A DNA stretch of 64,000 bases from Poseidonibacter parvus (GTDB taxonomy: Bacteria > Campylobacterota > Campylobacteria > Campylobacterales > Arcobacteraceae). This document shows, piece by piece, positions 836-53,052 of this stretch. Within the stretch, counting starts at the first letter, position 1. Each line of letters starts with the position of its first letter. The notes under the pieces were generated by a model, which ran no database searches, was not told the DNA's origin, and saw nothing but the letters and a program-made list of their open reading frames with translations. The position numbers and the translations under genes are program-made. The DNA lies in assembly GCF_001956695.1 (NCBI RefSeq), contig NZ_CP019070.1, positions 434,001-498,000 on the forward strand, written 5' to 3'.

Positions 836-1123
836 GAACTATTTAACTTAAACTTATAGAATTCTTTTTATATTTATTAATAAGAATTCAACTACTATAT
901 CATTCCCTCAATATTTCATTTATTTTCACTTTAATTTATAACTATTCTACTCTTAACATAGCATTAAAATAGCATTTGCAATTTATTTGTAAAATTGCGT
1001 AATTTTTAGACAATTTAAGCTAATATATTAAGTTTTAATTAAGTTTCACTGTGAAATAATGATTAAAGAAAAAAAGGTACTACTTTAAGTAGTACTAAAA
1101 AATACACATAAAAAGTTATAAAA
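836..1123 (+). promoter_or_regulatory. Leader of RHH cassette 1: AGCAT direct repeat and palindromic operator-like site
   Basis: This 288-bp stretch has no gene. At 960-975 AGCAT is repeated with an 11-bp period (AGCAT-TAAAAT-AGCAT). A 7-bp inverted repeat with a 7-nt spacer spans 978-998 (GCAATTT/AAATTGC). At 1077-1095 there is a perfect 19-bp palindrome with 9-bp arms (GTACTACTT/AAGTAGTAC), followed by CTAAAAAATAC. The AGCAT repeat and a palindrome followed by CTAAAAAATA recur at nearly the same distances before the second cassette at 12.4 kb. The palindrome is a plausible autoregulatory operator for the RHH protein; that role is inference. Confidence 0.55.
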
Positions 1124-2015: not shown

Positions 2016-2052
2016 ATAATATAAGAAATTTAATTCAAACTAAGGAGAAAAT

Positions 2053-3174
2053 ATGAATTTTAAAAAATTAACAGGTGCTTTAGCACTAAGTGCGGTAGTT
2101 GCTAGTTCACTAGTTGCTGCAGATACTGTAAAGATAGGTGTTCAAGCGCCAATTACTGGTAAGTATGCAAATGAAGGTCAAAGTATTGAAAACTTTGTTA
2201 AGTTAATTGTAGATGAAAAAAATGCAGCTGGTGGACTTTTAGGTAAACAAATTGAAGTTGTTACTTGTGATGATGAAGCTAAAGCTCAAAAAGCTGCTGT
2301 TTGTGCTAAGAAATTAGTAAATGAGGGTGTATTTGCTGTAATTGGTTCTTATACTTCAGGAGCAACAGAAGCTGCTCAAACTACATACTATAGAAACAAA
2401 GTTTTACAAACTTCTGATGGTACAAGTGATTCTTTAATTTCTAAAAAATACTGGACTTTCTTTAGAAATTCATTTCCAAACTCATCACAAAGTGATTTTA
2501 CAGCTGATTACTTTGTAAATGTAAAAAAATATCAAAGAATTGTTGTTTTATCTGATTACTCTTCTTATTCTGCTGGACTAGGTGATTCAACTGAAGCATC
2601 TACAAAAGCACTTGGCGGGAATGTAATCTTTAGAGGAAAAGTTAAATCAGGAACTCAAAACTTTACAGCAGTTTTAACAAAAATTAAAGCAATGAAACCA
2701 GATGTTATTTATTACTCAGGTTACTATACTGATGGTGGACTTATCCGTGCACAACAAGAGCAATTAGAAATTGATGCTGACTTTGTTGGTGGAGATTCAA
2801 ATGATAACCCTGATTTTGTTAAATTAGCAGGAAAATCAGCTGAAGGTACAGTTTTAATTAACTTTCCAACTCCAGAAATTTTACCATATCCTGAAGCTAA
2901 AAAATATTTAGCGGCATATAAAGCTAGATTTAAAATGGACCCTCCATCAATTTGGCCTGTTACAAATGCTGATGGATTAAGAGCTGTTATTGAAGGTGTT
3001 GAAAAAACTAACTCTTTTGATACTAAAAAAATCTCTGATTATATTAGATCTACAATGAAAGATTTCCCAGGAATTACAGGACCATTTAACATTAGAGAAG
3101 ATGGTGAAAGAGTAGGTGCTAAATTTGTTGTATATAATATGAAAAATGATGGTACTAAAGAAGTAGTAAAATAA
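2053..3174 (+). CDS. livK: ABC transporter periplasmic amino-acid binding protein (LivK/HAAT type)
   Basis: The 373-residue protein begins with a signal peptide (about residues 1-23, ending near SSLVAA). The mature part starts DTVKIGVQAPITGKYANEGQ, the classic opening of the type I periplasmic binding fold used by Liv-type hydrophobic amino acid transporters. A strong AAGGAG site precedes the ATG. It heads a five-gene operon with two permeases and two ATPases. Because putA follows and arginine/ornithine catabolism lies nearby, the substrate may be proline or another catabolised amino acid rather than leucine. The symbol marks the family only. Confidence 0.85.
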   Translation: MNFKKLTGALALSAVVASSLVAADTVKIGVQAPITGKYANEGQSIENFVKLIVDEKNAAGGLLGKQIEVVTCDDEAKAQKAAVCAKKLVNEGVFAVIGSYTSGATEAAQTTYYRNKVLQTSDGTSDSLISKKYWTFFRNSFPNSSQSDFTADYFVNVKKYQRIVVLSDYSSYSAGLGDSTEASTKALGGNVIFRGKVKSGTQNFTAVLTKIKAMKPDVIYYSGYYTDGGLIRAQQEQLEIDADFVGGDSNDNPDFVKLAGKSAEGTVLINFPTPEILPYPEAKKYLAAYKARFKMDPPSIWPVTNADGLRAVIEGVEKTNSFDTKKISDYIRSTMKDFPGITGPFNIREDGERVGAKFVVYNMKNDGTKEVVK

Positions 3175-12223: not shown

Positions 12224-12230
12224 CTTAAAT

Positions 12231-12379
12231 AGCATCAAAATAGCATTCTTAGTTTATTTTCAAAACTTTACCAAATTACATCTCTATATATATAATTAAA
12301 CCTATTTCTTAAGTTTATTTTAATTTTAACTGTGCAAGAATAATCAATCAAAGTTTAGTAATACTTTTGGTATTACTAA
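12231..12379 (+). promoter_or_regulatory. Leader of RHH cassette 2: AGCAT direct repeat, -10 box and operator-like palindrome
   Basis: AGCAT-CAAAAT-AGCAT lies at 12231-12246, about 151 bp before the ATG; in cassette 1 the distance is 149 bp. A TATAAT box follows near 12290. Inverted repeat TTAGTAATAC/GTATTACTAA (12355-12364 with 12370-12379, 5-nt spacer) is followed by AAAAATA, as in cassette 1. The leaders also share AACTGTG-AA--ATAAT-like blocks, so leader and genes were probably duplicated together. Confidence 0.55.
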
Positions 12380-25300: not shown

Positions 25301-28300
25301 CAGGAGTAAGTTTAACAATAGATGCAAATAGTTCACAAACACCAACAGTAGAAATTACACCAGTTGATGATTCAATATATGAAATCAGTGAAGCCTTTGG
25401 ATCAGTAATAACAACTTCTTCAGATGTAAACTTAGGAACAGATACAGCAGTAGCAGCAATAGATGATGAAGATAAAGATGGAGATACACCACCAGATGAT
25501 AAAGAAGGTGATAAACCAACATTAAATTTAACAGCAACAGATGCACTAGCAATAGAAGGTGTAGCAAATGATGTAGTAATCTTCCAAGTAGCACAAACAA
25601 ATGAAAGTAATAGTGATACTGTTGCTAACTTTAAACTAACTCTTAATGAATTAGAAGTAGCAGATATTACATCTGTAAAAATAACAGATGGAGATGGAAC
25701 AGTAACTACTCTTACAACAGCTGCAGAAATACAAGCTTTAGTAGATACAGGAGTAAGTTTAACAATAGATGCAAATAGTTCACAAACACCAACAGTAGAA
25801 ATTACACCAGTTGATGATTCAATATATGAAATCAGTGAAGCCTTTGGATCAGTAATAACAACTTCTTCAGATGTAAACTTAGGAACAGATACAGCAGTAG
25901 CAGCAATAGATGATGAAGATAAAGATGGAGATACACCACCAGATGATAAAGAAGGTGATAAACCAACATTAAATTTAACAGCAACAGATGCACTAGCAAT
26001 AGAAGGTGTAGCAAATGATGTAGTAATCTTCCAAGTAGCACAAACAAATGAAAGTAATAGTGATACTGTTGCTAACTTTAAACTAACTCTTAATGAATTA
26101 GAAGTAGCAGATATTACATCTGTAAAAATAACAGATGGAGATGGAACAGTAACTACTCTTACAACAGCTGCAGAAATACAAGCTTTAGTAGATACAGGAG
26201 TAAGTTTAACAATAGATGCAAATAGTTCACAAACACCAACAGTAGAAATTACACCAGTTGATGATTCAATATATGAAATCAGTGAAGCCTTTGGATCAGT
26301 AATAACAACTTCTTCAGATGTAAACTTAGGAACAGATACAGCAGTAGCAGCAATAGATGATGAAGATAAAGATGGAGATACACCACCAGATGATAAAGAA
26401 GGTGATAAACCAACATTAAATTTAACAGCAACAGATGCACTAGCAATAGAAGGTGTAGCAAATGATGTAGTAATCTTCCAAGTAGCACAAACAAATGAAA
26501 GTAATAGTGATACTGTTGCTAACTTTAAACTAACTCTTAATGAATTAGAAGTAGCAGATATTACATCTGTAAAAATAACAGATGGAGATGGAACAGTAAC
26601 TACTCTTACAACAGCTGCAGAAATACAAGCTTTAGTAGATACAGGAGTAAGTTTAACAATAGATGCAAATAGTTCACAAACACCAACAGTAGAAATTACA
26701 CCAGTTGATGATTCAATATATGAAATCAGTGAAGCCTTTGGATCAGTAATAACAACTTCTTCAGATGTAAACTTAGGAACAGATACAGCAGTAGCAGCAA
26801 TAGATGATGAAGATAAAGATGGAGATACACCACCAGATGATAAAGAAGGTGATAAACCAACATTAAATTTAACAGCAACAGATGCACTAGCAATAGAAGG
26901 TGTAGCAAATGATGTAGTAATCTTCCAAGTAGCACAAACAAATGAAAGTAATAGTGATACTGTTGCTAACTTTAAACTAACTCTTAATGAATTAGAAGTA
27001 GCAGATATTACATCTGTAAAAATAACAGATGGAGATGGAACAGTAACTACTCTTACAACAGCTGCAGAAATACAAGCTTTAGTAGATACAGGAGTAAGTT
27101 TAACAATAGATGCAAATAGTTCACAAACACCAACAGTAGAAATTACACCAGTTGATGATTCAATATATGAAATCAGTGAAGCCTTTGGATCAGTAATAAC
27201 AACTTCTTCAGATGTAAACTTAGGAACAGATACAGCAGTAGCAGCAATAGATGATGAAGATAAAGATGGAGATACACCACCAGATGATAAAGAAGGTGAT
27301 AAACCAACATTAAATTTAACAGCAACAGATGCACTAGCAATAGAAGGTGTAGCAAATGATGTAGTAATCTTCCAAGTAGCACAAACAAATGAAAGTAATA
27401 GTGATACTGTTGCTAACTTTAAACTAACTCTTAATGAATTAGAAGTAGCAGATATTACATCTGTAAAAATAACAGATGGAGATGGAACAGTAACTACTCT
27501 TACAACAGCTGCAGAAATACAAGCTTTAGTAGATACAGGAGTAAGTTTAACAATAGATGCAAATAGTTCACAAACACCAACAGTAGAAATTACACCAGTT
27601 GATGATTCAATATATGAAATCAGTGAAGCCTTTGGATCAGTAATAACAACTTCTTCAGATGTAAACTTAGGAACAGATACAGCAGTAGCAGCAATAGATG
27701 ATGAAGATAAAGATGGAGATACACCACCAGATGATAAAGAAGGTGATAAACCAACATTAAATTTAACAGCAACAGATGCACTAGCAATAGAAGGTGTAGC
27801 AAATGATGTAGTAATCTTCCAAGTAGCACAAACAAATGAAAGTAATAGTGATACTGTTGCTAACTTTAAACTAACTCTTAATGAATTAGAAGTAGCAGAT
27901 ATTACATCTGTAAAAATAACAGATGGAGATGGAACAGTAACTACTCTTACAACAGCTGCAGAAATACAAGCTTTAGTAGATACAGGAGTAAGTTTAACAA
28001 TAGATGCAAATAGTTCACAAACACCAACAGTAGAAATTACACCAGTTGATGATTCAATATATGAAATCAGTGAAGCCTTTGGATCAGTAATAACAACTTC
28101 TTCAGATGTAAACTTAGGAACAGATACAGCAGTAGCAGCAATAGATGATGAAGATAAAGATGGAGATACACCACCAGATGATAAAGAAGGTGATAAACCA
28201 ACATTAAATTTAACAGCAACAGATGCACTAGCAATAGAAGGTGTAGCAAATGATGTAGTAATCTTCCAAGTAGCACAAACAAATGAAAGTAATAGTGATA

Positions 28301-31300
28301 CTGTTGCTAACTTTAAACTAACTCTTAATGAATTAGAAGTAGCAGATATTACATCTGTAAAAATAACAGATGGAGATGGAACAGTAACTACTCTTACAAC
28401 AGCTGCAGAAATACAAGCTTTAGTAGATACAGGAGTAAGTTTAACAATAGATGCAAATAGTTCACAAACACCAACAGTAGAAATTACACCAGTTGATGAT
28501 TCAATATATGAAATCAGTGAAGCCTTTGGATCAGTAATAACAACTTCTTCAGATGTAAACTTAGGAACAGATACAGCAGTAGCAGCAATAGATGATGAAG
28601 ATAAAGATGGAGATACACCACCAGATGATAAAGAAGGTGATAAACCAACATTAAATTTAACAGCAACAGATGCACTAGCAATAGAAGGTGTAGCAAATGA
28701 TGTAGTAATCTTCCAAGTAGCACAAACAAATGAAAGTAATAGTGATACTGTTGCTAACTTTAAACTAACTCTTAATGAATTAGAAGTAGCAGATATTACA
28801 TCTGTAAAAATAACAGATGGAGATGGAACAGTAACTACTCTTACAACAGCTGCAGAAATACAAGCTTTAGTAGATACAGGAGTAAGTTTAACAATAGATG
28901 CAAATAGTTCACAAACACCAACAGTAGAAATTACACCAGTTGATGATTCAATATATGAAATCAGTGAAGCCTTTGGATCAGTAATAACAACTTCTTCAGA
29001 TGTAAACTTAGGAACAGATACAGCAGTAGCAGCAATAGATGATGAAGATAAAGATGGAGATACACCACCAGATGATAAAGAAGGTGATAAACCAACATTA
29101 AATTTAACAGCAACAGATGCACTAGCAATAGAAGGTGTAGCAAATGATGTAGTAATCTTCCAAGTAGCACAAACAAATGAAAGTAATAGTGATACTGTTG
29201 CTAACTTTAAACTAACTCTTAATGAATTAGAAGTAGCAGATATTACATCTGTAAAAATAACAGATGGAGATGGAACAGTAACTACTCTTACAACAGCTGC
29301 AGAAATACAAGCTTTAGTAGATACAGGAGTAAGTTTAACAATAGATGCAAATAGTTCACAAACACCAACAGTAGAAATTACACCAGTTGATGATTCAATA
29401 TATGAAATCAGTGAAGCCTTTGGATCAGTAATAACAACTTCTTCAGATGTAAACTTAGGAACAGATACAGCAGTAGCAGCAATAGATGATGAAGATAAAG
29501 ATGGAGATACACCACCAGATGATAAAGAAGGTGATAAACCAACATTAAATTTAACAGCAACAGATGCACTAGCAATAGAAGGTGTAGCAAATGATGTAGT
29601 AATCTTCCAAGTAGCACAAACAAATGAAAGTAATAGTGATACTGTTGCTAACTTTAAACTAACTCTTAATGAATTAGAAGTAGCAGATATTACATCTGTA
29701 AAAATAACAGATGGAGATGGAACAGTAACTACTCTTACAACAGCTGCAGAAATACAAGCTTTAGTAGATACAGGAGTAAGTTTAACAATAGATGCAAATA
29801 GTTCACAAACACCAACAGTAGAAATTACACCAGTTGATGATTCAATATATGAAATCAGTGAAGCCTTTGGATCAGTAATAACAACTTCTTCAGATGTAAA
29901 CTTAGGAACAGATACAGCAGTAGCAGCAATAGATGATGAAGATAAAGATGGAGATACACCACCAGATGATAAAGAAGGTGATAAACCAACATTAAATTTA
30001 ACAGCAACAGATGCACTAGCAATAGAAGGTGTAGCAAATGATGTAGTAATCTTCCAAGTAGCACAAACAAATGAAAGTAATAGTGATACTGTTGCTAACT
30101 TTAAACTAACTCTTAATGAATTAGAAGTAGCAGATATTACATCTGTAAAAATAACAGATGGAGATGGAACAGTAACTACTCTTACAACAGCTGCAGAAAT
30201 ACAAGCTTTAGTAGATACAGGAGTAAGTTTAACAATAGATGCAAATAGTTCACAAACACCAACAGTAGAAATTACACCAGTTGATGATTCAATATATGAA
30301 ATCAGTGAAGCCTTTGGATCAGTAATAACAACTTCTTCAGATGTAAACTTAGGAACAGATACAGCAGTAGCAGCAATAGATGATGAAGATAAAGATGGAG
30401 ATACACCACCAGATGATAAAGAAGGTGATAAACCAACATTAAATTTAACAGCAACAGATGCACTAGCAATAGAAGGTGTAGCAAATGATGTAGTAATCTT
30501 CCAAGTAGCACAAACAAATGAAAGTAATAGTGATACTGTTGCTAACTTTAAACTAACTCTTAATGAATTAGAAGTAGCAGATATTACATCTGTAAAAATA
30601 ACAGATGGAGATGGAACAGTAACTACTCTTACAACAGCTGCAGAAATACAAGCTTTAGTAGATACAGGAGTAAGTTTAACAATAGATGCAAATAGTTCAC
30701 AAACACCAACAGTAGAAATTACACCAGTTGATGATTCAATATATGAAATCAGTGAAGCCTTTGGATCAGTAATAACAACTTCTTCAGATGTAAACTTAGG
30801 AACAGATACAGCAGTAGCAGCAATAGATGATGAAGATAAAGATGGAGATACACCACCAGATGATAAAGAAGGTGATAAACCAACATTAAATTTAACAGCA
30901 ACAGATGCACTAGCAATAGAAGGTGTAGCAAATGATGTAGTAATCTTCCAAGTAGCACAAACAAATGAAAGTAATAGTGATACTGTTGCTAACTTTAAAC
31001 TAACTCTTAATGAATTAGAAGTAGCAGATATTACATCTGTAAAAATAACAGATGGAGATGGAACAGTAACTACTCTTACAACAGCTGCAGAAATACAAGC
31101 TTTAGTAGATACAGGAGTAAGTTTAACAATAGATGCAAATAGTTCACAAACACCAACAGTAGAAATTACACCAGTTGATGATTCAATATATGAAATCAGT
31201 GAAGCCTTTGGATCAGTAATAACAACTTCTTCAGATGTAAACTTAGGAACAGATACAGCAGTAGCAGCAATAGATGATGAAGATAAAGATGGAGATACAC

Positions 31301-33669
31301 CACCAGATGATAAAGAAGGTGATAAACCAACATTAAGCGTTAGCAGTATAACTGTAACAGAAGGCACAGATGCATTTGCTCAATTTACAGTTAGTTTATC
31401 TAATAAATCAACACAAGATGTTGGATTTAATTTGTCATTATCTAATATTCAAGCTTTAGGTTTAGGGGTAGATTATGGGAATAATAGTGCAAGTAATTTA
31501 CAAGTGTCTACTGATAATGGTGGAACTTGGATAAATGCGACAAGTGCAATTATTCCTTCTGGATCTTCTTCCGTATTGGTTAGAACACCAATTACAAATG
31601 ATCTTACGACAGAATCTGATGAAACATTTAAATTAACTGCTACTGTTACTTCAGGTTCTGTTACAAATACAACTGATGCTTTTGGAATAGGTACTATTTT
31701 AGATAATGATACTAATGTAGTAATAGGAACACCACTTGATGCAGCTGTTGATGAAGATGATTTAAGTGATGGTAATGATACTGGAAAAGAGCCATTGCTT
31801 ATTACTAAGTCTTTAGATATTACAGCTGGTACTGATTCTTTTGATATAACATTTAATGGAATTACTGATGGACAAGATAGTGGATTAACGCAAAATGGTA
31901 ATACTATTTATTACTATTTAGACAATAATAGTCATATTTTAACTGCATCCACTTCAAATAGTGAAGGTGGAATAAGTTCATCAAATACAATTTTTACTAA
32001 TACTATTAATAATCCAACAAGTGCTAATTCTAGTTATACTTTTGAGTTAAAAGATTCAATTGATCATGCGAGCGCAAATGGAGAAAATATAAAAGCTTTA
32101 GATTTCAATATAGTTGCTACTGAGGATAATGGATATACAACTACAGATAGTTTTACAGTAAGTGTAACAGATGATGTACCAACTATTTTTGACGTAGAAG
32201 ACTCTGTATTTATTGGACCAAAGACGACAAATTTAATATTAGTTTTAGATGCTTCTGGAAGTATGCAATGGGATTTCTCACAAAATAGTGGTTCTTCAAA
32301 TGTGAGAATGAATGCTATGAAAGATGCTGCAAAAGCAATGATTGATGGTTATGAAGAATTAGGTAAGGTAAATGTAATGATCACTTCTTTTGGTGGGGCT
32401 AATATTATAACATATACAGCAAATGGTTCAATGACAAATACTCAAAATTCATGGGATGGAACAGGGGAAAGTATTTGGTTAGATTCGGATACAGCAAAAA
32501 ACAAAATTGGTGATAATTCAAATGGTATTCAAGCAGGTGGAGGAACACAGTATAAAGAAGCTATGGATAATACATCTGATGCATATATTAGTTCTGCAAA
32601 TGCAGGGAATAATCCTGATTCAGATTTTACATATGTTTATTTTATGTCAGATGGTGAACCTAATGAAGGACATGAACCACAGTTATCAACTAAATGGGAT
32701 GATTTAATAAATAGAGCTGAAATAGATGCTGTTGATGGTGTAGCAATTTCTCAAGCAGTTAATGTTGATAATTTAGAAATAGTTGCAGGAACTGACGATT
32801 CTAATGTATTAGGAATAAATTCAGGTAAAGGGGAAGCTTATTCTGTTACAACTGCAGCTGAAATGCAAGTAAAACTTCTTTCTGAGACAACTATTACTAT
32901 AACAGGAAGTGTTTTCTCTGATGGGACGCTACCTGGAATTGGAGCAGGGGCTGATGAAGCATATGTAACATCAATAGTTATAGGAAATAAAACTTATAGC
33001 TATGATGGAAATTTAATAATTGATGAGTCAAATAATACTATTGGATCAGGTTCAATTATGACTGATATTAATACTACTTTAACAGATGGTACTAATGGAA
33101 TTGGTTCAAAAATAACTTTAGATTTTAAAACAGGAGAATATTCGTATACAGTTAATTCTAGTCTTTCTGGTAAAGAGTATAGTGAATCATTGTCAACATC
33201 GGTAATCGATAGAGATGGAGATAGCATAACTAAGGATATTATTTTAAAGGTAAATACATCTAAAACAGGAACAGGTGGTAATGACACTATGTTATTTGAT
33301 GATACTCAAGCTCTAGATTTCTTAGCTGGAAATGATTCTTTGGTATTAGATAATGGAATAAATTTAGATTTTGATACAAAAAATGCAACAATTAATAATG
33401 TAGAAAAAATAGATTTAAATTCAAATGGTAATCATAATATTACTAATCTAGGAATTCAAGATGTTATTGATATGACAGATTCAAATAATATTTTACAAAT
33501 ATTAGGTAATTCACAAGATAGTGTAAATCTAAAAAATGGAGATGGTGGTAATTGGGTTGATACAGGAAATAATGATACAATAGATGGACAAGATTACGAT
33601 ATTTATAGTAAATCAGGTGATAACACAGCAGTAACATTAAAAATAGACCAAGATATAACAATAATATAA
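22318..33669 (+). CDS. Giant type I secreted, Lap-type repetitive adhesin
   Basis: A 3783-residue acidic protein. Residues 1-75 resemble the retention module that holds LapA-type adhesins in the outer membrane pore (GELQLVNEGGELIELSNG). A low-complexity acidic linker follows, then two Calx-beta-like domains (about 205-455). Seventeen identical 149-residue repeats cover about 470-3005, each with a DEDKDGDTPPDDKEGD calcium-type linker. Next are one more Calx-beta-like domain, a von Willebrand A domain (MIDAS LVLDASGSM, Asp3311) and a C-terminal RTX/type I secretion region (TGTGGNDTMLFDD onward). The downstream genes encode its secretion and control. It lacks the usual di-alanine LapG cleavage site. 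Expected role: cell-surface adhesion and biofilm. Confidence 0.9.
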   Translation: MATVIGQIIEVNGEFEIVNENGEIVQLQEGQELQVGDQIQGIVQEINGELQLVNEGGELIELSNGLVLETIDSLPNNTQQETSNTTALLNNGEQVTVSTQNPLVLDPTVTNNQANTFEETQIDNETLDNLESDLIDETNLVVENNNDNDTDTEEEDEVQSDDSKARELDRNGDIADVVADLREPVIDYREPEENVLGEEETRFNEAKLSINGVSSVIEGNKALYTLNVSEVPSSNVHVTISYSGVAIDGLDYTGIKNIVIPSGSKEVSFLIDTIDDYYAEGTEPYTLEIISALGGGYDQLKINPTENSVTTKILDSNSPDPDKENPSDEDIVYVKISNDDETTEADGSTLTHKVSLIDNNGNPVIVPSGSSIKIKLIYSNDTTENEDYITKVFEVDIPSGSSSTDIINIIANDDIYEIEEGYTLSIDKVIDINNTFEKMEIDSSNNSTTGKIDDEDKDGDTPPDDKEGDKPTLNLTATDALAIEGVANDVVIFQVAQTNESNSDTVANFKLTLNELEVADITSVKITDGDGTVTTLTTAAEIQALVDTGVSLTIDANSSQTPTVEITPVDDSIYEISEAFGSVITTSSDVNLGTDTAVAAIDDEDKDGDTPPDDKEGDKPTLNLTATDALAIEGVANDVVIFQVAQTNESNSDTVANFKLTLNELEVADITSVKITDGDGTVTTLTTAAEIQALVDTGVSLTIDANSSQTPTVEITPVDDSIYEISEAFGSVITTSSDVNLGTDTAVAAIDDEDKDGDTPPDDKEGDKPTLNLTATDALAIEGVANDVVIFQVAQTNESNSDTVANFKLTLNELEVADITSVKITDGDGTVTTLTTAAEIQALVDTGVSLTIDANSSQTPTVEITPVDDSIYEISEAFGSVITTSSDVNLGTDTAVAAIDDEDKDGDTPPDDKEGDKPTLNLTATDALAIEGVANDVVIFQVAQTNESNSDTVANFKLTLNELEVADITSVKITDGDGTVTTLTTAAEIQALVDTGVSLTIDANSSQTPTVEITPVDDSIYEISEAFGSVITTSSDVNLGTDTAVAAIDDEDKDGDTPPDDKEGDKPTLNLTATDALAIEGVANDVVIFQVAQTNESNSDTVANFKLTLNELEVADITSVKITDGDGTVTTLTTAAEIQALVDTGVSLTIDANSSQTPTVEITPVDDSIYEISEAFGSVITTSSDVNLGTDTAVAAIDDEDKDGDTPPDDKEGDKPTLNLTATDALAIEGVANDVVIFQVAQTNESNSDTVANFKLTLNELEVADITSVKITDGDGTVTTLTTAAEIQALVDTGVSLTIDANSSQTPTVEITPVDDSIYEISEAFGSVITTSSDVNLGTDTAVAAIDDEDKDGDTPPDDKEGDKPTLNLTATDALAIEGVANDVVIFQVAQTNESNSDTVANFKLTLNELEVADITSVKITDGDGTVTTLTTAAEIQALVDTGVSLTIDANSSQTPTVEITPVDDSIYEISEAFGSVITTSSDVNLGTDTAVAAIDDEDKDGDTPPDDKEGDKPTLNLTATDALAIEGVANDVVIFQVAQTNESNSDTVANFKLTLNELEVADITSVKITDGDGTVTTLTTAAEIQALVDTGVSLTIDANSSQTPTVEITPVDDSIYEISEAFGSVITTSSDVNLGTDTAVAAIDDEDKDGDTPPDDKEGDKPTLNLTATDALAIEGVANDVVIFQVAQTNESNSDTVANFKLTLNELEVADITSVKITDGDGTVTTLTTAAEIQALVDTGVSLTIDANSSQTPTVEITPVDDSIYEISEAFGSVITTSSDVNLGTDTAVAAIDDEDKDGDTPPDDKEGDKPTLNLTATDALAIEGVANDVVIFQVAQTNESNSDTVANFKLTLNELEVADITSVKITDGDGTVTTLTTAAEIQALVDTGVSLTIDANSSQTPTVEITPVDDSIYEISEAFGSVITTSSDVNLGTDTAVAAIDDEDKDGDTPPDDKEGDKPTLNLTATDALAIEGVANDVVIFQVAQTNESNSDTVANFKLTLNELEVADITSVKITDGDGTVTTLTTAAEIQALVDTGVSLTIDANSSQTPTVEITPVDDSIYEISEAFGSVITTSSDVNLGTDTAVAAIDDEDKDGDTPPDDKEGDKPTLNLTATDALAIEGVANDVVIFQVAQTNESNSDTVANFKLTLNELEVADITSVKITDGDGTVTTLTTAAEIQALVDTGVSLTIDANSSQTPTVEITPVDDSIYEISEAFGSVITTSSDVNLGTDTAVAAIDDEDKDGDTPPDDKEGDKPTLNLTATDALAIEGVANDVVIFQVAQTNESNSDTVANFKLTLNELEVADITSVKITDGDGTVTTLTTAAEIQALVDTGVSLTIDANSSQTPTVEITPVDDSIYEISEAFGSVITTSSDVNLGTDTAVAAIDDEDKDGDTPPDDKEGDKPTLNLTATDALAIEGVANDVVIFQVAQTNESNSDTVANFKLTLNELEVADITSVKITDGDGTVTTLTTAAEIQALVDTGVSLTIDANSSQTPTVEITPVDDSIYEISEAFGSVITTSSDVNLGTDTAVAAIDDEDKDGDTPPDDKEGDKPTLNLTATDALAIEGVANDVVIFQVAQTNESNSDTVANFKLTLNELEVADITSVKITDGDGTVTTLTTAAEIQALVDTGVSLTIDANSSQTPTVEITPVDDSIYEISEAFGSVITTSSDVNLGTDTAVAAIDDEDKDGDTPPDDKEGDKPTLNLTATDALAIEGVANDVVIFQVAQTNESNSDTVANFKLTLNELEVADITSVKITDGDGTVTTLTTAAEIQALVDTGVSLTIDANSSQTPTVEITPVDDSIYEISEAFGSVITTSSDVNLGTDTAVAAIDDEDKDGDTPPDDKEGDKPTLNLTATDALAIEGVANDVVIFQVAQTNESNSDTVANFKLTLNELEVADITSVKITDGDGTVTTLTTAAEIQALVDTGVSLTIDANSSQTPTVEITPVDDSIYEISEAFGSVITTSSDVNLGTDTAVAAIDDEDKDGDTPPDDKEGDKPTLSVSSITVTEGTDAFAQFTVSLSNKSTQDVGFNLSLSNIQALGLGVDYGNNSASNLQVSTDNGGTWINATSAIIPSGSSSVLVRTPITNDLTTESDETFKLTATVTSGSVTNTTDAFGIGTILDNDTNVVIGTPLDAAVDEDDLSDGNDTGKEPLLITKSLDITAGTDSFDITFNGITDGQDSGLTQNGNTIYYYLDNNSHILTASTSNSEGGISSSNTIFTNTINNPTSANSSYTFELKDSIDHASANGENIKALDFNIVATEDNGYTTTDSFTVSVTDDVPTIFDVEDSVFIGPKTTNLILVLDASGSMQWDFSQNSGSSNVRMNAMKDAAKAMIDGYEELGKVNVMITSFGGANIITYTANGSMTNTQNSWDGTGESIWLDSDTAKNKIGDNSNGIQAGGGTQYKEAMDNTSDAYISSANAGNNPDSDFTYVYFMSDGEPNEGHEPQLSTKWDDLINRAEIDAVDGVAISQAVNVDNLEIVAGTDDSNVLGINSGKGEAYSVTTAAEMQVKLLSETTITITGSVFSDGTLPGIGAGADEAYVTSIVIGNKTYSYDGNLIIDESNNTIGSGSIMTDINTTLTDGTNGIGSKITLDFKTGEYSYTVNSSLSGKEYSESLSTSVIDRDGDSITKDIILKVNTSKTGTGGNDTMLFDDTQALDFLAGNDSLVLDNGINLDFDTKNATINNVEKIDLNSNGNHNITNLGIQDVIDMTDSNNILQILGNSQDSVNLKNGDGGNWVDTGNNDTIDGQDYDIYSKSGDNTAVTLKIDQDITII
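23671..31334 (+). repeat. Tandem array of 17 apparently perfect 447-bp repeats
   Basis: The unit starting at 23731 recurs every 447 bp, and 17 units end exactly at 31330 (7599 bp = 17 x 447). A further partial copy of about 60 bp frames the array. I saw no base difference between copies at the points compared, and the encoded 149-residue units are all identical. The length is a multiple of three, so copy number can change without a frameshift. The repeat also lacks stop codons in one antisense frame. Confidence 0.95.
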
Positions 33670-47110: not shown

Positions 47111-49564
47111 ATGAAAATAATAATATTATTTATGATGTTTTTCTCAAGTGTAATAGCACAAATAAATATAGAAAAAAATGAATCTTTCTCAGATATTGAA
47201 AAAGAGTATATAAAAACAAATACAGTAACAATTGGAATGATAGAAGATTACTATCCTTTTGCATTTAAAAATAATGGAAAACCAAATGGATATTCATATG
47301 ATTATTTAAATTTGATTATTAAAAAAAGTGGTTTAAAAATAGATATCAAAATGGATACATGGAGTAATATATTAAAAAAATTCAAAAATAAAGAACTTAA
47401 TTTAATTGATACTATTTCATATAAAAAAGACAGAGAAAGTTTTACAAACTTTACAGAGCCTTATTTTCAAATTGCAAATGTAATTTTTGCCCGTAAAGGT
47501 GAGTTCCTTGATTATGAAAACTTTGAATCTTTAAAAGGAATGAAAATTGGTATAACAAAAGATATCTATTATTACGATACGGTAAAAGATTTAAATCTTT
47601 TTGAGCTAGTAACTTATAAGAATTCTAAGGAAAATATGAAAGCATTAGCATTTGGAGATGTTGATGCTGCATTTAATAATCATATGAGTGGACAAAGATA
47701 TGTTAGTGAAGCTGGATATACAAATATAAAAATTCTTGATGAGTTAAATAGTAATACAATAAAAAAAGAAGATTTGAGAATTGGAGTAGAAAAAGAGAAT
47801 GATATTTTATATTCAATTATAAATAAGTCTATAAAATTAATCTCAAGAAAAGAACTGGAGAAACTAAATAATAAATGGTTTAGTACACGTATAATACCTG
47901 ATAATCAAGTTAATGATATTGGTTTAACCAAAGAAGAAAAAAAATATTTAGATGAAAAAGAGTTTATAAATATGTGTATTGATCCTCATTGGATGCCTTT
48001 TGAAAAACTTGATGAAAAGGGTAATCATATAGGAATTACGGCAGATTATTATAAAGTTTTAAGTAAGATGATAAATCAAAATATAAGAGTAATAAAAACA
48101 ACTAGTTGGAATCAATCTATAGAATATGCAAAGAGTAGAAAATGTGATATTTTATCTTTAGCAATGCAAACACCAGAACGAAAACAATATATGGATTTTA
48201 CAACTCCGTATTTAAAAATACCAATAGTTATTGCTACAAAACTAGATGTTCCTTTTATTGATAATATTGCAAGTTTAAAAAATAAAAGTGTTGGAATTCC
48301 TAAAGGATATGCTTTTGTTGAATTATTAAAGAAAAAATATAAAAATATAAATATTATTGAAGTTGATGATATTAAAGATGGATTAAAAAAAGTTAATCAA
48401 GGTGAATTATATGGCTATATAGGAACACTAGCTAGTATTAGTTATCAATTCCAAAATGGTTTAGGCACAGCTCTTAAGATAACTGGAAAGTTTGATGAGA
48501 AATGGGAACTTGCAATTGCTGTTAGGAATGATGATAAGATATTATTTAATATTTTAGAAAAACTAGTTGAAAAGATGGATGTTTTAGAACATCAAAGGAT
48601 ATTAAGTAATTGGATATCTATAAAATATGAAAAAGAAATTAATTATACAATTATAATATATTTATTAGTTGCAGTATTTGTAATAGCTTTATTATTTTTA
48701 TATAGACAATATAGCTTAAAAAAATCTAATAGAGATTTAAAAATTGCTGTGGAAAAGAAAACAAAAGATTTACAAGCATTAAATGAAAGTTTAGAATCAA
48801 GAATTAAAGAAGAGGTAGAAAAGAACTTAGATATACAAGAAAAGCTTTTTAAATCAGAGAAAATGGCATCTATGGGAGAAATGATAGGAAATATTGCCCA
48901 TCAATGGAGACAGCCTTTATCTATGATATCTATGGGAGCAACAGGTATGCAATTACAGAAGAGTCATGGCTTACTTAGTGATGAATTCTTTGAGCAAACT
49001 TGTATTGATATAAATGAAAATGCTCAATATCTTTCTAAAACAATTGATGATTTTAGAAACTTTATTCTAGGTGATAGAACTAAAGTTGTATTCACTTTAA
49101 GTAATGAAATCAATAGGTTCCTAAGTTTAGTAAAAGGTTCTATTACTAATAATAATATTAACATGATTGTTAATATAGAAAAAGAACTTGAATTATTTGG
49201 CTATCCTAATGAACTTCTTCAATGTGTGATTAATATTTTTAATAACTCTAGAGATATATTATTAGAAAGAGAAATTAAAAACAAATATATTTTCATTACA
49301 TCGTATACTGAAAACAACAATATAATCATAAAAATAAAAGATAATGCAAGAGGAATAAATAAGGATATTCTTCCTAAAGTTTTTGATTTATATTTTACTA
49401 CAAAACATCAATCTAAAGGGACAGGTATTGGACTTCATATGACATATAACTTAATTGTAAAAGGTATGAATGGAAGTATTGAAGTTCATAATGCAAAATA
49501 TACTTATGAAAATAATGAGTATAGTGGGGCTGAATTTGTGATTAAAATTCCTAAGGAAACTTAG
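47111..49564 (+). CDS. Sensor histidine kinase with two periplasmic solute-binding domains
   Basis: The 817-residue protein has a signal peptide or first span (1-16) and two SBP_bac_3-type domains in tandem (about 30-260 and 275-500; the second has DFTTPYLKIPIVIA). A membrane span (about 513-535) and a coiled coil follow. The kinase core has its phospho-acceptor in GNIAHQWRQP (His597) and an ATPase domain ending GTGIGLHMTYNLIVKG. There is no HAMP or receiver domain and no response regulator next to it. It probably senses amino acids or other small molecules. Its stop overlaps the stop of the convergent flavoprotein gene by a few bases. Confidence 0.88.
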   Translation: MKIIILFMMFFSSVIAQINIEKNESFSDIEKEYIKTNTVTIGMIEDYYPFAFKNNGKPNGYSYDYLNLIIKKSGLKIDIKMDTWSNILKKFKNKELNLIDTISYKKDRESFTNFTEPYFQIANVIFARKGEFLDYENFESLKGMKIGITKDIYYYDTVKDLNLFELVTYKNSKENMKALAFGDVDAAFNNHMSGQRYVSEAGYTNIKILDELNSNTIKKEDLRIGVEKENDILYSIINKSIKLISRKELEKLNNKWFSTRIIPDNQVNDIGLTKEEKKYLDEKEFINMCIDPHWMPFEKLDEKGNHIGITADYYKVLSKMINQNIRVIKTTSWNQSIEYAKSRKCDILSLAMQTPERKQYMDFTTPYLKIPIVIATKLDVPFIDNIASLKNKSVGIPKGYAFVELLKKKYKNINIIEVDDIKDGLKKVNQGELYGYIGTLASISYQFQNGLGTALKITGKFDEKWELAIAVRNDDKILFNILEKLVEKMDVLEHQRILSNWISIKYEKEINYTIIIYLLVAVFVIALLFLYRQYSLKKSNRDLKIAVEKKTKDLQALNESLESRIKEEVEKNLDIQEKLFKSEKMASMGEMIGNIAHQWRQPLSMISMGATGMQLQKSHGLLSDEFFEQTCIDINENAQYLSKTIDDFRNFILGDRTKVVFTLSNEINRFLSLVKGSITNNNINMIVNIEKELELFGYPNELLQCVINIFNNSRDILLEREIKNKYIFITSYTENNNIIIKIKDNARGINKDILPKVFDLYFTTKHQSKGTGIGLHMTYNLIVKGMNGSIEVHNAKYTYENNEYSGAEFVIKIPKET

Positions 49565-51306
49565 GAAATATTAGATTTAGCCCAAGTCCCAAAAGCTTGT
49601 TTTTCAAACTTCATTTTTCCTTTTTTGCTTTTATAAATATTTATCCATGCTTGCCAGTTTTTATTATCAAGATTAGGATAATCTAACCTAAAATGACTAC
49701 AACGACTCTCTTTTCTCATTAATGATGCTTTTAATTTCATTTTTGCACTTATTATCATATTGATAGTTTCATGTGCAAGTCTTAATTCATGAAAATCTTC
49801 TGCTTTTAAATATGGAAGATGAGATTGTTCAAGCTCTTCTACATAAGCTAAAGCACCTTTTAGCATATTTTCTTTTTTTATATATAAAACAAAATTTGGA
49901 ATCATTATTCCTTGCAGTGTTTGAGTTACCCAAGCAGGAGAATATCCAGCTTTTTTATTTAAAGGTTCTAAGATTTCTTTTTTTATTGTTGCTATTCTTT
50001 TATCTGAAATCTTTGTCATTTTTATATTTTTTGCATACTCAGCACTTGCTTTTCCTGCTATATCTCCTTGAACAGCTGATCCTGCCAAAGATGAACCAAT
50101 TTGAGTATATATACCACCTGACATATAAGAGCCAAGAGCATCTCCAGCAGCATATAAGCCTTTAATTGTAGACTCACAAAATTCATTTATAGGAACTAGT
50201 CCCTCTGATTTATGTATTGCTAATCCAGCACTAGAACCTCCAACAGGAGTTCCATTCATACCTGGAGGTAAACCTTCTTTTTTGCCATTTCTTGGAGGAG
50301 GAGGTCCTTTTCTGTGTTTATGATCACCTCTTGGGTCTTCAGTCATTTTAAATTCACTAGGAGTATAAGGCCCACCTTTTATATCACTTGTAATCATCCC
50401 TGGAGGTCCCATTTTCACATCATTACCACTTGTATATGCCATATAATTAATATCTACTCCTAAATGATGATTTACTTGAACTTGTGTAGTTTCAGGTTTT
50501 TTCTCAAACATTCCATGCCAATTACCAAAAGCATCTGCAGGGTTTTTTGAATTCCCAACATGACCATCATTCCACTCTTTCCCTGTAACTTTTGCACCTA
50601 TATTATAAGCCATAATTGTTCCATCATGAGTTAAATCTCTTAATGGAAAACCGTTAGGTTTAAAGCCTCCTGCTCCTGTACATAAAATCACACTTTTTGC
50701 AGTAAAAGTATATATCTTTTCATCATCTAAACTAAATCCTGCTGCACCAGCAATCTTACCATCTTGTTTAATCAAGTGAGTTATCATTACACGTTCTAAA
50801 AGTGGAATATTTCTTTCTTCAATAGGTTTAGAAAAAGATTTATTATATAAAGCTGATTCAAAAAAACCCCAATCTTTTAATTCTTTAACTCTTTGTTTTG
50901 AATTTTGTGCCATTTGTTTTGTATAAGTTTTATTATTTGTACCTAAAGCTGATCTTGAAACTTTTTCAACAAATTCATCAATAGATAGTTTTTCTTTTTC
51001 TTCATCATAAGAGAATATTCCTTTTGCAAATGGAGTTTGACCAGAAGTTCCAAGTCCTCCTTTTGATACCATCATGACTTTTGCACCTGCATCATGAGCT
51101 TTTACACTTGCAAAGAGTCCAGCCATTCCACTACCAATTACTAGAACATCAACTTCATAGTTACTCTCTTCTAGGTTTTCTAGATTAATCTTTACTTCAT
51201 TATTAGCCCATCCAAGTGTAGAACTTAAGCTTGTTAACCAAAGCATACTAATTGCATTACTTGTAATATTTAAAAATTCTCTTCTTGAAGTATTATTTTC
51301 TTTCAT
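49561..51306 (-). CDS. Tat-exported FAD-dependent oxidoreductase (fumarate reductase/succinate dehydrogenase flavoprotein-like)
   Basis: A 581-residue protein with a twin-arginine signal (SRREFLNI) at the N terminus. VDVLVIGSGMAGLFASVKAH is the FAD-binding loop (about residue 50). GLYAAGDALGSYMSGGIYTQ and SLAGSAVQGDIAGK form the second FAD contact, and the C-terminal helical domain resembles fumarate reductase flavoproteins. A proline/glycine-rich insert (about 325-355) is unusual. It is the last gene of a ferredoxin-cytochrome-flavoprotein operon, so it probably reduces or oxidises an organic substrate in the periplasm. The substrate is unknown. Confidence 0.82.
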   Translation of the reverse strand: MKENNTSRREFLNITSNAISMLWLTSLSSTLGWANNEVKINLENLEESNYEVDVLVIGSGMAGLFASVKAHDAGAKVMMVSKGGLGTSGQTPFAKGIFSYDEEKEKLSIDEFVEKVSRSALGTNNKTYTKQMAQNSKQRVKELKDWGFFESALYNKSFSKPIEERNIPLLERVMITHLIKQDGKIAGAAGFSLDDEKIYTFTAKSVILCTGAGGFKPNGFPLRDLTHDGTIMAYNIGAKVTGKEWNDGHVGNSKNPADAFGNWHGMFEKKPETTQVQVNHHLGVDINYMAYTSGNDVKMGPPGMITSDIKGGPYTPSEFKMTEDPRGDHKHRKGPPPPRNGKKEGLPPGMNGTPVGGSSAGLAIHKSEGLVPINEFCESTIKGLYAAGDALGSYMSGGIYTQIGSSLAGSAVQGDIAGKASAEYAKNIKMTKISDKRIATIKKEILEPLNKKAGYSPAWVTQTLQGIMIPNFVLYIKKENMLKGALAYVEELEQSHLPYLKAEDFHELRLAHETINMIISAKMKLKASLMRKESRCSHFRLDYPNLDNKNWQAWINIYKSKKGKMKFEKQAFGTWAKSNIS

Positions 51307-51310
51307 GATT

Positions 51311-51943
51311 CTATCCTTTGTTTTTATTTGTTGTAAAATACGATTTAAATAGAAGTATAGAAGCTGCTAAGCTAATTAAAATTACTAAGATACTCATGCT
51401 GAGATTCATATGTCTACCTGTTTCAATTGAATGCCAAGAAGCAAAAATTATAAAGACTAAAGCTAAACTTCCATGGAATATTTTCCATGCTTTATAACTC
51501 ATTTTTAATTTATCTTTTAATATTGAAGTAAGTCCAAGAAGTAATATTAAACACCAGCCAATAATACCTATTATAATTGCTAAGCTATCAAAAGTTGTAA
51601 TCATTTTTATAAATGAATCTAGAGGTCTTGGTCCAACTTCAAAGAATCTAGGAACAACAATTAAAAAAGGATGAAATAATAGTATAGGTATAGCTGTATA
51701 TCCAAGAATTTTATGTATTTTTATAATTTTTGAAGATTGAAAAATGCTCTTTAATCCAATATTTAAATTTGATAAAAAGAATTGTAAGAGTACTACAAAA
51801 AAAGCAAGGATTGTAATAATTGAAATAGTATCTTTTAAAATGCTTCTTTGTGGTATTTGTGTTAATATAAAAAAAACCATAGGTAAAAAGACAAAAAATA
51901 TTAATAGCAATACCATATATAAGGATTTAAGATTTAAGTTCAT
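51311..51943 (-). CDS. Membrane cytochrome, ferric reductase-like transmembrane protein
   Basis: A protein of about 210 residues with six hydrophobic segments. The start at 51943 (MNLNLKSLYM) is chosen because a longer frame would overlap the ferredoxin gene, and this ATG follows the ferredoxin stop by two bases. Histidines in predicted spans (KIHKILGYTAIPILLFHPF; KIFHGSLALVFIIFASWHSI) fit haem b ligation as in ferric reductase/YedZ-type proteins. It would pass electrons between the membrane and the exported flavoprotein. Confidence 0.78.
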   Translation of the reverse strand: MNLNLKSLYMVLLLIFFVFLPMVFFILTQIPQRSILKDTISIITILAFFVVLLQFFLSNLNIGLKSIFQSSKIIKIHKILGYTAIPILLFHPFLIVVPRFFEVGPRPLDSFIKMITTFDSLAIIIGIIGWCLILLLGLTSILKDKLKMSYKAWKIFHGSLALVFIIFASWHSIETGRHMNLSMSILVILISLAASILLFKSYFTTNKNKG

Positions 51944-51945
51944 TT

Positions 51946-52161
51946 CTAACCCCAAGACACTATTACTGGAATTGATTTTTCTGATGTTATTGTTATTGCA
52001 TCTACAGGACAATAGAGTCTGCATAAATGACAAATCTGGCAATCTTCAACATATTTTATTTCTGCTTTATTTGATTTTCTGTTCATTCTAATTACATCAG
52101 TTGGACATACTTTAACACATGTTTCACACCCAATACAACCGCTAATATCTGATATAGCCAT
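51946..52161 (-). CDS. Small 2[4Fe-4S] ferredoxin
   Basis: A 71-residue protein with two full cluster motifs, CIGCETCVKVCPTDV and CQICHLCRLYCPVDAI. The ATG at 52161 (MAISDISG) is preferred because GGAG lies eight bases upstream; a GTG at 52170 overlaps that site. It is the first gene of the operon with the cytochrome and flavoprotein genes and is the likely cytoplasmic electron carrier. Confidence 0.85.
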   Translation of the reverse strand: MAISDISGCIGCETCVKVCPTDVIRMNRKSNKAEIKYVEDCQICHLCRLYCPVDAITITSEKSIPVIVSWG

Positions 52162-52304
52162 AATAATCACTCCATATTTTTATAAAGTAATTATAGGCTT
52201 GTTGTTTAAACAAGTTATAAATATTAAGTAAATAAAGGTAAATGAGTAATTATTAAAAATTTTGGATTGTAATTATTTTGATTTTTATATTGAAAGTTTA
52301 AAAG

Positions 52305-52380
52305 AGAAGTCTTATCCTGAAAAAAATTTTACAGCTACGTAATTTCTTTACTAAGGAGAGATAATAGATAAAACTTCTAT
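52305..52380 (-). ncRNA. Candidate small RNA 1 (long hairpin with pyrimidine-rich loop)
   Basis: On the minus strand AGAAGTTTTATC (52378-52367) pairs with GATAAGACTTCT (52316-52305); all 12 positions pair if one U-G wobble is counted. On the plus strand the same position would be a C-A mismatch, so the minus strand is the likely transcript. TATAAT at 52393-52388 places the start at about 52380, right at the stem. The loop carries ATCTCTCCTT, complementary to ribosome-binding sites. CTTTTAAACTTT follows the stem as a weak terminator tail. Confidence 0.55.
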
Positions 52381-52402
52381 TTCAAAAATTATATCATAAA
52401 AA

Positions 52403-52418
52403 ATGCTATTTTAATGCT
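52403..52418 (-). promoter_or_regulatory. AGCAT direct repeat upstream of small RNA 1
   Basis: On the minus strand this reads AGCAT-TAAAAT-AGCAT, identical to the repeat at 960-975 and one base from that at 12231-12246, all pointing toward their downstream genes. Here it ends nine bases before a TATAAT box, in the -35 zone. It may bind a shared regulator. Confidence 0.5.
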
Positions 52419-52532
52419 ACGTTAGTATTTTTTTTTGAAATTTGTATATTAGAATATAAATTTAAGTAAATTTTAATTTTTGTAAAAAGAAAATGAACAT
52501 AAGTAATGGATGATTTTTTAAGAAAGGTATAA

Positions 52533-52607
52533 AAGAAGTTTTATCATGAAAAATCTTATATTGACTTTTTATTTTAAAAGGAGGGGAGAGATAAAACTTC
52601 TTATTAT
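52533..52607 (-). ncRNA. Candidate small RNA 2 (paralogue of small RNA 1)
   Basis: On the minus strand AAGAAGTTTTATC (52602-52590) pairs perfectly over 13 bp with GATAAAACTTCTT (52545-52533). The loop starts TCTCCCCTCCTT, an anti-Shine-Dalgarno-like tract shared with RNA 1, and ends TTTTTCAT as in RNA 1 (TTTTTCAG). A TGATACAAT -10 box at 52619-52614 puts the start a few bases before the stem. The T-rich tail after the stem is weak. Confidence 0.55.
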
Positions 52608-52662
52608 GGTGTAATTGTATCAGTATCAAAATCTTAAGTTAATGACATAAATCAATAAAATG

Positions 52663-53052
52663 CTATTTTACAAAAACTTTTGAATCATATAGTTTTTTAT
52701 TAATTCTTACTTCAAGATAACCTTTTGTCACCTTTTTATGTATAAAGGTTTGTTCTTGCGCTATTTTTATTTTTTGCTTGTTATAAATTGAAATTGACTT
52801 AGTTAAAACTCCAGTAGAATTTCCTATTCTTACATCTGCTTTATCTTTATTCATATTTCCAAAAATTACAATTTTTGAATAACAAGTTCCATTGTAATTA
52901 TCTTTTGTTTCTTTTAGATGTTGAACATTTTCACCTTTGCCATTTTCATGAAAAATTCCAATAGCATGTACTTTTTTAATTTTTGAAGAGTAAGCATTTA
53001 AACCGCTTATTGAAAGTAATAGTAAAGTTAAAATTATAAATATTTTTTTCAT
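52663..53052 (-). CDS. Small secreted hypothetical protein
   Basis: A 129-residue protein with a clear signal peptide (about residues 1-20, ending GLNAYS). The mature part is lysine-rich and predicted mainly beta (KADVRIGNSTGVLTKSISIY; KGYLEVRINKKLYDSKVFVK) with a single cysteine. I recognise no family. It lies 38 bp after the PAS gene on the same strand and could be co-transcribed with the nap operon or have its own promoter. Its TAG stop falls within an AAAATAGCATTTT element. Confidence 0.65.
   Translation of the reverse strand: MKKIFIILTLLLLSISGLNAYSSKIKKVHAIGIFHENGKGENVQHLKETKDNYNGTCYSKIVIFGNMNKDKADVRIGNSTGVLTKSISIYNKQKIKIAQEQTFIHKKVTKGYLEVRINKKLYDSKVFVK

Follow-up and report, generated by a model that had tools for sequence, protein, structure and literature searches.

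What is encoded by two related hairpins on the minus strand of Poseidonibacter parvus, between the p129 gene and a ferredoxin gene (51946-52161)? A preliminary description of the window, the whole stretch of 64,000 nucleotides analysed here, had proposed tandem sibling small RNAs whose C/U-rich loops repress translation by pairing with Shine-Dalgarno (SD) sequences, and alternatively leader elements of the ferredoxin operon. The upstream hairpin is named sRNA A and the downstream hairpin sRNA B. According to our analysis, sRNA B is likely to repress a carbon-utilisation regulon by SD masking, independently of Hfq, and sRNA A would be its re-tuned duplicate.

Organisation of the locus

Both hairpins were found on the minus strand with similar arms, as previously described, their starts lying 223 bp apart, close to the distance of about 225 bp given before. 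A joint pattern of the AGAAGTTTTATC and GATAARACTTCT arms enclosing a loop of 40-70 nt occurs in these two places only, in the window and in the 2.87-Mb genome alike, and no occurrence is expected in shuffles of the window. Compared with shuffled sequences, the hairpin of sRNA A folds far better (z -4.2), and that of sRNA B moderately better (z -1.9). The -10 boxes set the predicted starts at the foot of each stem, which bears out the earlier placement. Tandem paralogues, organised as an adjacent homologous sRNA pair, are present in the genome of the window and in four more members of Poseidonibacter. The features of the locus are listed in Table 1. For p129, the usual upstream neighbour, no Pfam match was obtained.

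Elsewhere in the window, a 447-bp unit is repeated 17.2 times at 100% identity (23670-31336) inside an ORF of 3783 aa (22318-33669, plus strand), which probably encodes a giant repetitive, adhesin-like protein.

Table 1. Predicted features of the sRNA locus and related sites in the window
Feature	Positions	Strand	Basis
sRNA B, predicted transcript (hairpin 52305-52378 and U-rich tail)	52298..52381	-	ends placed from -10 box and tail
Stem P1 closing sRNA B, 5' arm, paired to 52305-52317	52366..52378	-	two-sided changes in 10/13 P1 pairs; GU excess
Stem P1 closing sRNA B, 3' arm	52305..52317	-	covariation; GU/AC asymmetry
sRNA B single-stranded seed UUAUCUCUCCUUAGUA, near-invariant putative anti-SD loop	52349..52364	-	complement is a recurrent RBS motif
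sRNA B inner hairpin P2 (pairing kept, sequence and length variable)	52321..52348	-	helices 2 and 3 of the covariation analysis
sRNA B -10 box TATAAT, extended TATGATATAAT; predicted start ~52381	52388..52393	-	sequence; conserved position
sRNA B promoter box TAGCATTAAAATAGCATT, direct repeat with 11-bp period, OmpR/PhoB-like layout	52402..52419	-	all 40 loci
sRNA A, predicted transcript (hairpin 52534-52601)	52528..52607	-	5 genus members show compensatory changes in the stem
sRNA A C/U-rich loop CUCUCCCCUCCUUUUAAA	52572..52589	-	TCCCCTCCTTTTAAA identical in 5 copies
sRNA A -10 box TACAAT; predicted start ~52607	52614..52619	-	sequence; equal spacing in relatives
FNR-like site TTGATTTATGTCAT, centre 41.5 bp upstream of predicted sRNA A start	52642..52655	-	TTGATTTATATCAT at equal spacing in 4 relatives
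p129, exported 129-aa protein, end of nap operon	52663..53052	-	usual upstream neighbour of sRNA B
Candidate target RBS AACTAAGGAGAAAATATG of LivK-type ABC substrate-binding protein (ORF 2053-3174)	2038..2055	+	complements sRNA B seed
Second exact copy of sRNA B promoter box, upstream of LivK-type gene cluster	959..976	+	sequence match

Distribution and structure of sRNA B

With covariance model R2, sRNA B was detected in 39 of 104 Arcobacteraceae genomes, including all ten Poseidonibacter genomes, most of Aliarcobacter (g10), and one genome each of two further genera. One more carrier, G034, was missed by the model, and the alignment comprises the 40 loci. In an order-level sample of 298 genomes, the model gave no match beyond the Arcobacteraceae, and the 381-bp region had no covariance-model match in Rfam 15, either at the gathering score or at E up to 1. 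sRNA A is found in five copies in the genus. The comparison with relatives strengthens the case for both hairpins and confirms them, on sequence grounds, as genuine small-RNA genes. sRNA B appears to be a previously uncatalogued small-RNA family of the Arcobacter family. Stav et al. 2019 (PMC6429828) analysed intergenic regions of Arcobacter sp. L and left several Arcobacter-only regions unnamed in the supplement; therefore, an earlier sighting of sRNA B without a name is possible.

In sRNA B, a single closing stem surrounds an inner hairpin, and the core of the loop is the near-invariant, single-stranded AUCUCUCCUUAGU(U)AAA. All 40 aligned loci contain CTCTCCTTAG; the flanks are fixed, and the stem and the inner hairpin drift. 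In a pattern search of Poseidonibacter, the loop was nearly unchanged. Two-sided pairing changes were observed in 15 of the 22 pairs, a value reached by none of 500 shuffles, in a family alignment that was fitted to the model, so that the count leans towards it; slid controls fall to 2-7 pairs. With its own promoter, as judged by sequence conservation, and a conserved RNA structure, sRNA B fits an independent gene.

Both strands of the hairpins can fold. On the plus strand, the loops carry AAGGAGAG and AAGGAGGGG, and a functional RNA with GGA (AAGGAG) in its loop could sequester CsrA in the manner of a CsrB-type sponge. However, with each distinct row of the family alignment counted once, the closing stem contains 64 G-U cells versus 1 A-C cell, which indicates that pairing was selected on the minus strand only and that this strand is the functional RNA. 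The preliminary description had noted a single U-G pair that holds only on the minus strand; this proved correct and general. In addition, the promoter boxes and the -10 face the minus strand in 40/40 loci. The candidate sponge was rejected as very improbable, since GGA lies only on the strand disfavoured by the G-U asymmetry and the promoters.

In many Aliarcobacter genomes (e.g. L081, L096, and L103), AAAGGTCGTTCT is conserved 3' of the sRNA B hairpin.

Neighbouring genes

In the genome of the window, sRNA B is followed, at a distance of about 140 bp, by the start of the ferredoxin gene, a position that would suit cis control of the ferredoxin-flavocytochrome operon by a leader or an attenuator (51946-52161 onward). 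The synteny of the relatives contradicts this earlier proposal. In none of those examined is a ferredoxin gene next after sRNA B, and in G002, G005, and G006 the ferredoxin operon is located on other contigs, which suggests that the operon moved within the genus. A conserved stretch, followed by a terminator-like hairpin with a U-run, is found 3' of sRNA B in G002, G003, G005, and others; the ferredoxin operon appears to have displaced both in the genome of the window. As the position upstream of a regulated gene is not conserved, the leader was rejected and is hardly credible, and an independent RNA gene is the preferred reading. Most of the loci examined have the gene p129 upstream of sRNA B, and nap genes are often near.

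The genes adjoining sRNA B in the window (49561-52161) encode a ferredoxin, a ferric-reductase-like protein, and a flavoprotein.

Promoters and predicted regulators

The box TAGCATTAAAATAGCATT or a close variant was present in 40/40 sRNA B loci. Its distance to the -10 is 9-10 bp in most of Poseidonibacter and 18-20 bp in the remaining loci, a difference of roughly one turn of the helix. The regulator of sRNA B is predicted to be a direct-repeat binder, perhaps of the OmpR type. No literature was found on the TAGCAT box. Boxes of the TAGCATTAAAATAGCATT type are present at three places in the window (959-976, 12230-12247, and 52402-52419). Genes of this genome that are preceded by the box include a lactate-permease-like gene, a gene for a sugar-type binding protein, and the LivK-type cluster of the window, names that come from reading the translations. 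These boxes make up an apparent regulon in the genome of the window.

The promoter of sRNA A carries a different regulator site. The sequence TTGATTTATRTCAT, close to the FNR consensus TTGATNNNNATCAA, is centred 41.5 bp before the predicted start in five genomes, which corresponds to the position of a putative class II activator site. The motif TAAAATAGCATTTT is found near both copies, and was rejected as a common regulator site; only the downstream one lies within the conserved double box, and the copy at 52657-52670 is not conserved in relatives and is therefore taken as chance.

A 147-aa Cache-domain-like protein (L178, L202, L204, L215, L222, and L231) resembles the sensor part of MctS. 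Its gene combines the promoter box with the target motif of sRNA B, which suggests a feed-forward loop.

Candidate targets of sRNA B

Target sites were surveyed by pattern search and in selected stretches; about 130 AACTAAGGAGA-ATG sites were fetched and translated, and target identities were taken from NCBIfam. The pattern AACTAAGGAGA-N0-12-ATG gave 117 matches in the 41 genomes of two sRNA genera (reversed control 20) and 47 matches in the 63 other genomes of the family (reversed control 26), counts that take in a few antisense matches on the sRNA itself and overlapping ATGs. Before ATG, AACTAAGGAGA is 4-fold commoner in the sRNA-bearing genera. The matches form clusters of citrate/2-methylcitrate synthase (28 in sRNA genera versus 0 in the others), ackA (4 versus 0), LivK (4 versus 0), and TAXI-type binding proteins of TRAP systems (12 versus 1; the single match comes from G011, itself an sRNA carrier). 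Six more sites in the sRNA genera precede the gene of a box-controlled Cache-domain protein, and two precede a DUF485 gene. Outside these genera, the sites belong to mixed genes, with no synthase, ackA, or LivK among them.

At the prpC RBS, the mean length of the longest stretch matching the seed complement is 10.3 nt in 39 genomes that carry the sRNA and 6.9 nt in 42 that lack it (Mann-Whitney p 4e-8, which overstates the case, as the matches are phylogenetically non-independent and mostly from Aliarcobacter). The seed match is common to two unlike forms of prpC, and reaches 16 nt in G008/G009. Duplexes at the best sites are predicted at about -20 to -24 kcal/mol; a prpC site lacking the extension, or a generic SD, gives about -10 to -11 kcal/mol. 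The sites at prpC, gltA, and ackA combine complementarity to the seed with co-occurrence with sRNA B, and the LivK-type target motif is kept at the orthologue in four genus members. The conserved seed is predicted, by complementarity, to pair with mRNAs in several species. In the g19 genus, which is without sRNA B, CTAGGGAAAA is conserved just upstream of the prpC RBS (L251, L262, L263, L270-L272, L298, L303-L305, and L307-L312), and could be a site of another regulator or sRNA.

The genome of the window possesses prpC and gltA genes without a full seed match. The strongest matches there are at soxA, two ABC systems, and a sugar SBP; amino-acid and sugar ABC genes and a DctP protein are among its leading candidates, and the regulon may thus have shifted between genera. 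The soxA match is also present in one genome without the sRNA; given how widespread SD motifs are, some of the matches are generic.

This raises the alternative that the SD match is a generic C/U-rich tract, that sRNA B acts otherwise (e.g. by protein binding), and that the targets merely have strong RBSs. AAGGAGA is an ordinary SD, the genera free of the sRNA also possess AACTAAGGAGA sites, and matches with up to 3 mismatches in the genome of the window (91) show no excess over the reversed control (96). Nonetheless, the AACT upstream of it is not part of the SD consensus, yet it is tied to the presence of the sRNA and to one metabolic class, and this extension is common to the two prpC forms. 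Contiguous matches of 13-16 nt exist, and the loop of sRNA B is unchanging beyond CUCC. We regard the generic tract as an unlikely explanation, and SD masking by sRNA B as the preferred one.

sRNA A

sRNA A is confined to Poseidonibacter, with five copies and a half-deleted remnant in L039. Its stem has compensatory changes across the five genus members. Conservation and sequence suggest that it is a genus-level paralogue of sRNA B with its own conserved loop. The covariance models of sRNA A and sRNA B each detect the other copy, and the stem arms and loop ends are common to both. Hence the two could act on one common set of targets, with the redundancy that the Neisseria siblings largely show. 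However, the core loops CCCCUCCUUUUAAAAU and AUCUCUCCUUAGUAAA are unlike, each being conserved within its own copies, and the two promoters carry different sites; we consider redundancy quite improbable, and favour a diverged duplicate.

The search for targets of sRNA A with AAAAGGAGGG-N-ATG gave one match in ten genomes, and in the window nothing convincing was detected apart from its own locus. The anti-SD function attributed to both loops is thus upheld for sRNA B, through conservation, covariation, strand asymmetry, and comparative targets; for sRNA A the RNA stands and the targets do not. Likewise, prediction from the loop sequence yielded recurrent RBSs of prpC, gltA, ackA, TAXI, and LivK genes only for sRNA B.

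Proposed mechanism

The sequence comparison shows the structure, the strand, the conservation, the promoter sites, and a target complementarity that goes along with the presence of the sRNA. We infer the expression of sRNA B, its direction of regulation, its mechanism, and its inducing signal as follows. sRNA B would be a trans-acting RNA of about 75-85 nt with one closed hairpin, in which a 13-bp stem closes a large loop presenting the invariant AUCUCUCCUUAGUUAAA seed. The seed would pair with the SD region, often reaching the start codon, of mRNAs of prpC, gltA, ackA, the acetate-permease-linked DUF485 gene, and TRAP-TAXI and ABC substrate-binding proteins, and would block ribosome binding. 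Most likely, sRNA B turns off the translation of genes for carbon uptake and for citrate, propionate, and acetate metabolism. An active regulator of sRNA B would then lead to less uptake and catabolism of organic acids and amino acids. Hfq would play no part; it was found in none of ten Poseidonibacter genomes, and the five control genomes were all positive. sRNA A would have arisen as a duplicate of sRNA B in the Poseidonibacter lineage, and would have been put under an FNR-like oxygen/nitrate regulator with an altered C/U-rich loop; therefore, its target set is probably different.

Comparison with known small RNAs

The closest functional parallel is NgncR_162/163 of Neisseria gonorrhoeae (NmsR/RcoF in N. 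meningitidis), also two adjacent sibling sRNAs. They repress by a loop covering the RBS, and prpC, gltA, ack, and genes for amino-acid uptake are among their targets; the two share 78% identity, fold into three stem-loops, and bind Hfq (PMC9973317). In contrast, sRNA A and sRNA B have one closed hairpin each, belong to a genus in which no Hfq was found, and diverge in loops and promoters. No sequence kinship to the Neisseria siblings was seen. The different architecture, together with the lack of Hfq, of kinship, and of an Rfam match, points to a separate new sRNA family.

A second parallel is formed by RepG of Helicobacter pylori and other Hfq-less sRNAs of the Campylobacterota, the same phylum; RepG base-pairs with mRNA leaders (PMC8295292), as is proposed for sRNA B. 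RepG is reported to target a G-repeat in the tlpB leader, and is set apart from sRNA B, which has an SD-type seed, many metabolic candidate targets, and another structure. A further parallel is the LhrC family, the seeds of which are C/U-rich. In Listeria monocytogenes, its multicopy siblings are under the response regulator LisR (PMC5880928). Phylum, structure, and targets differ from those of sRNA A and sRNA B.

For a wider evolutionary reading, the balance is even. An sRNA found across the Arcobacteraceae would have convergently gained the regulon of the Neisseria siblings without Hfq, with methylcitrate synthase, citrate synthase, acetate kinase, and carboxylate and amino-acid uptake as the core, and a Poseidonibacter copy, its loop re-tuned, would have exchanged a direct-repeat nutrient regulator for control of the FNR type.

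Knowledge of regulation by small RNAs in the Arcobacteraceae is scarce. sRNA B provides a structured, family-wide sRNA with a testable list of candidate targets, and the pair of sRNA A and sRNA B represents a natural duplication with diverged promoter and seed. If true, SD-masking control of central carbon metabolism by sRNAs with C/U-rich loops would have arisen independently in the Campylobacterota without Hfq.
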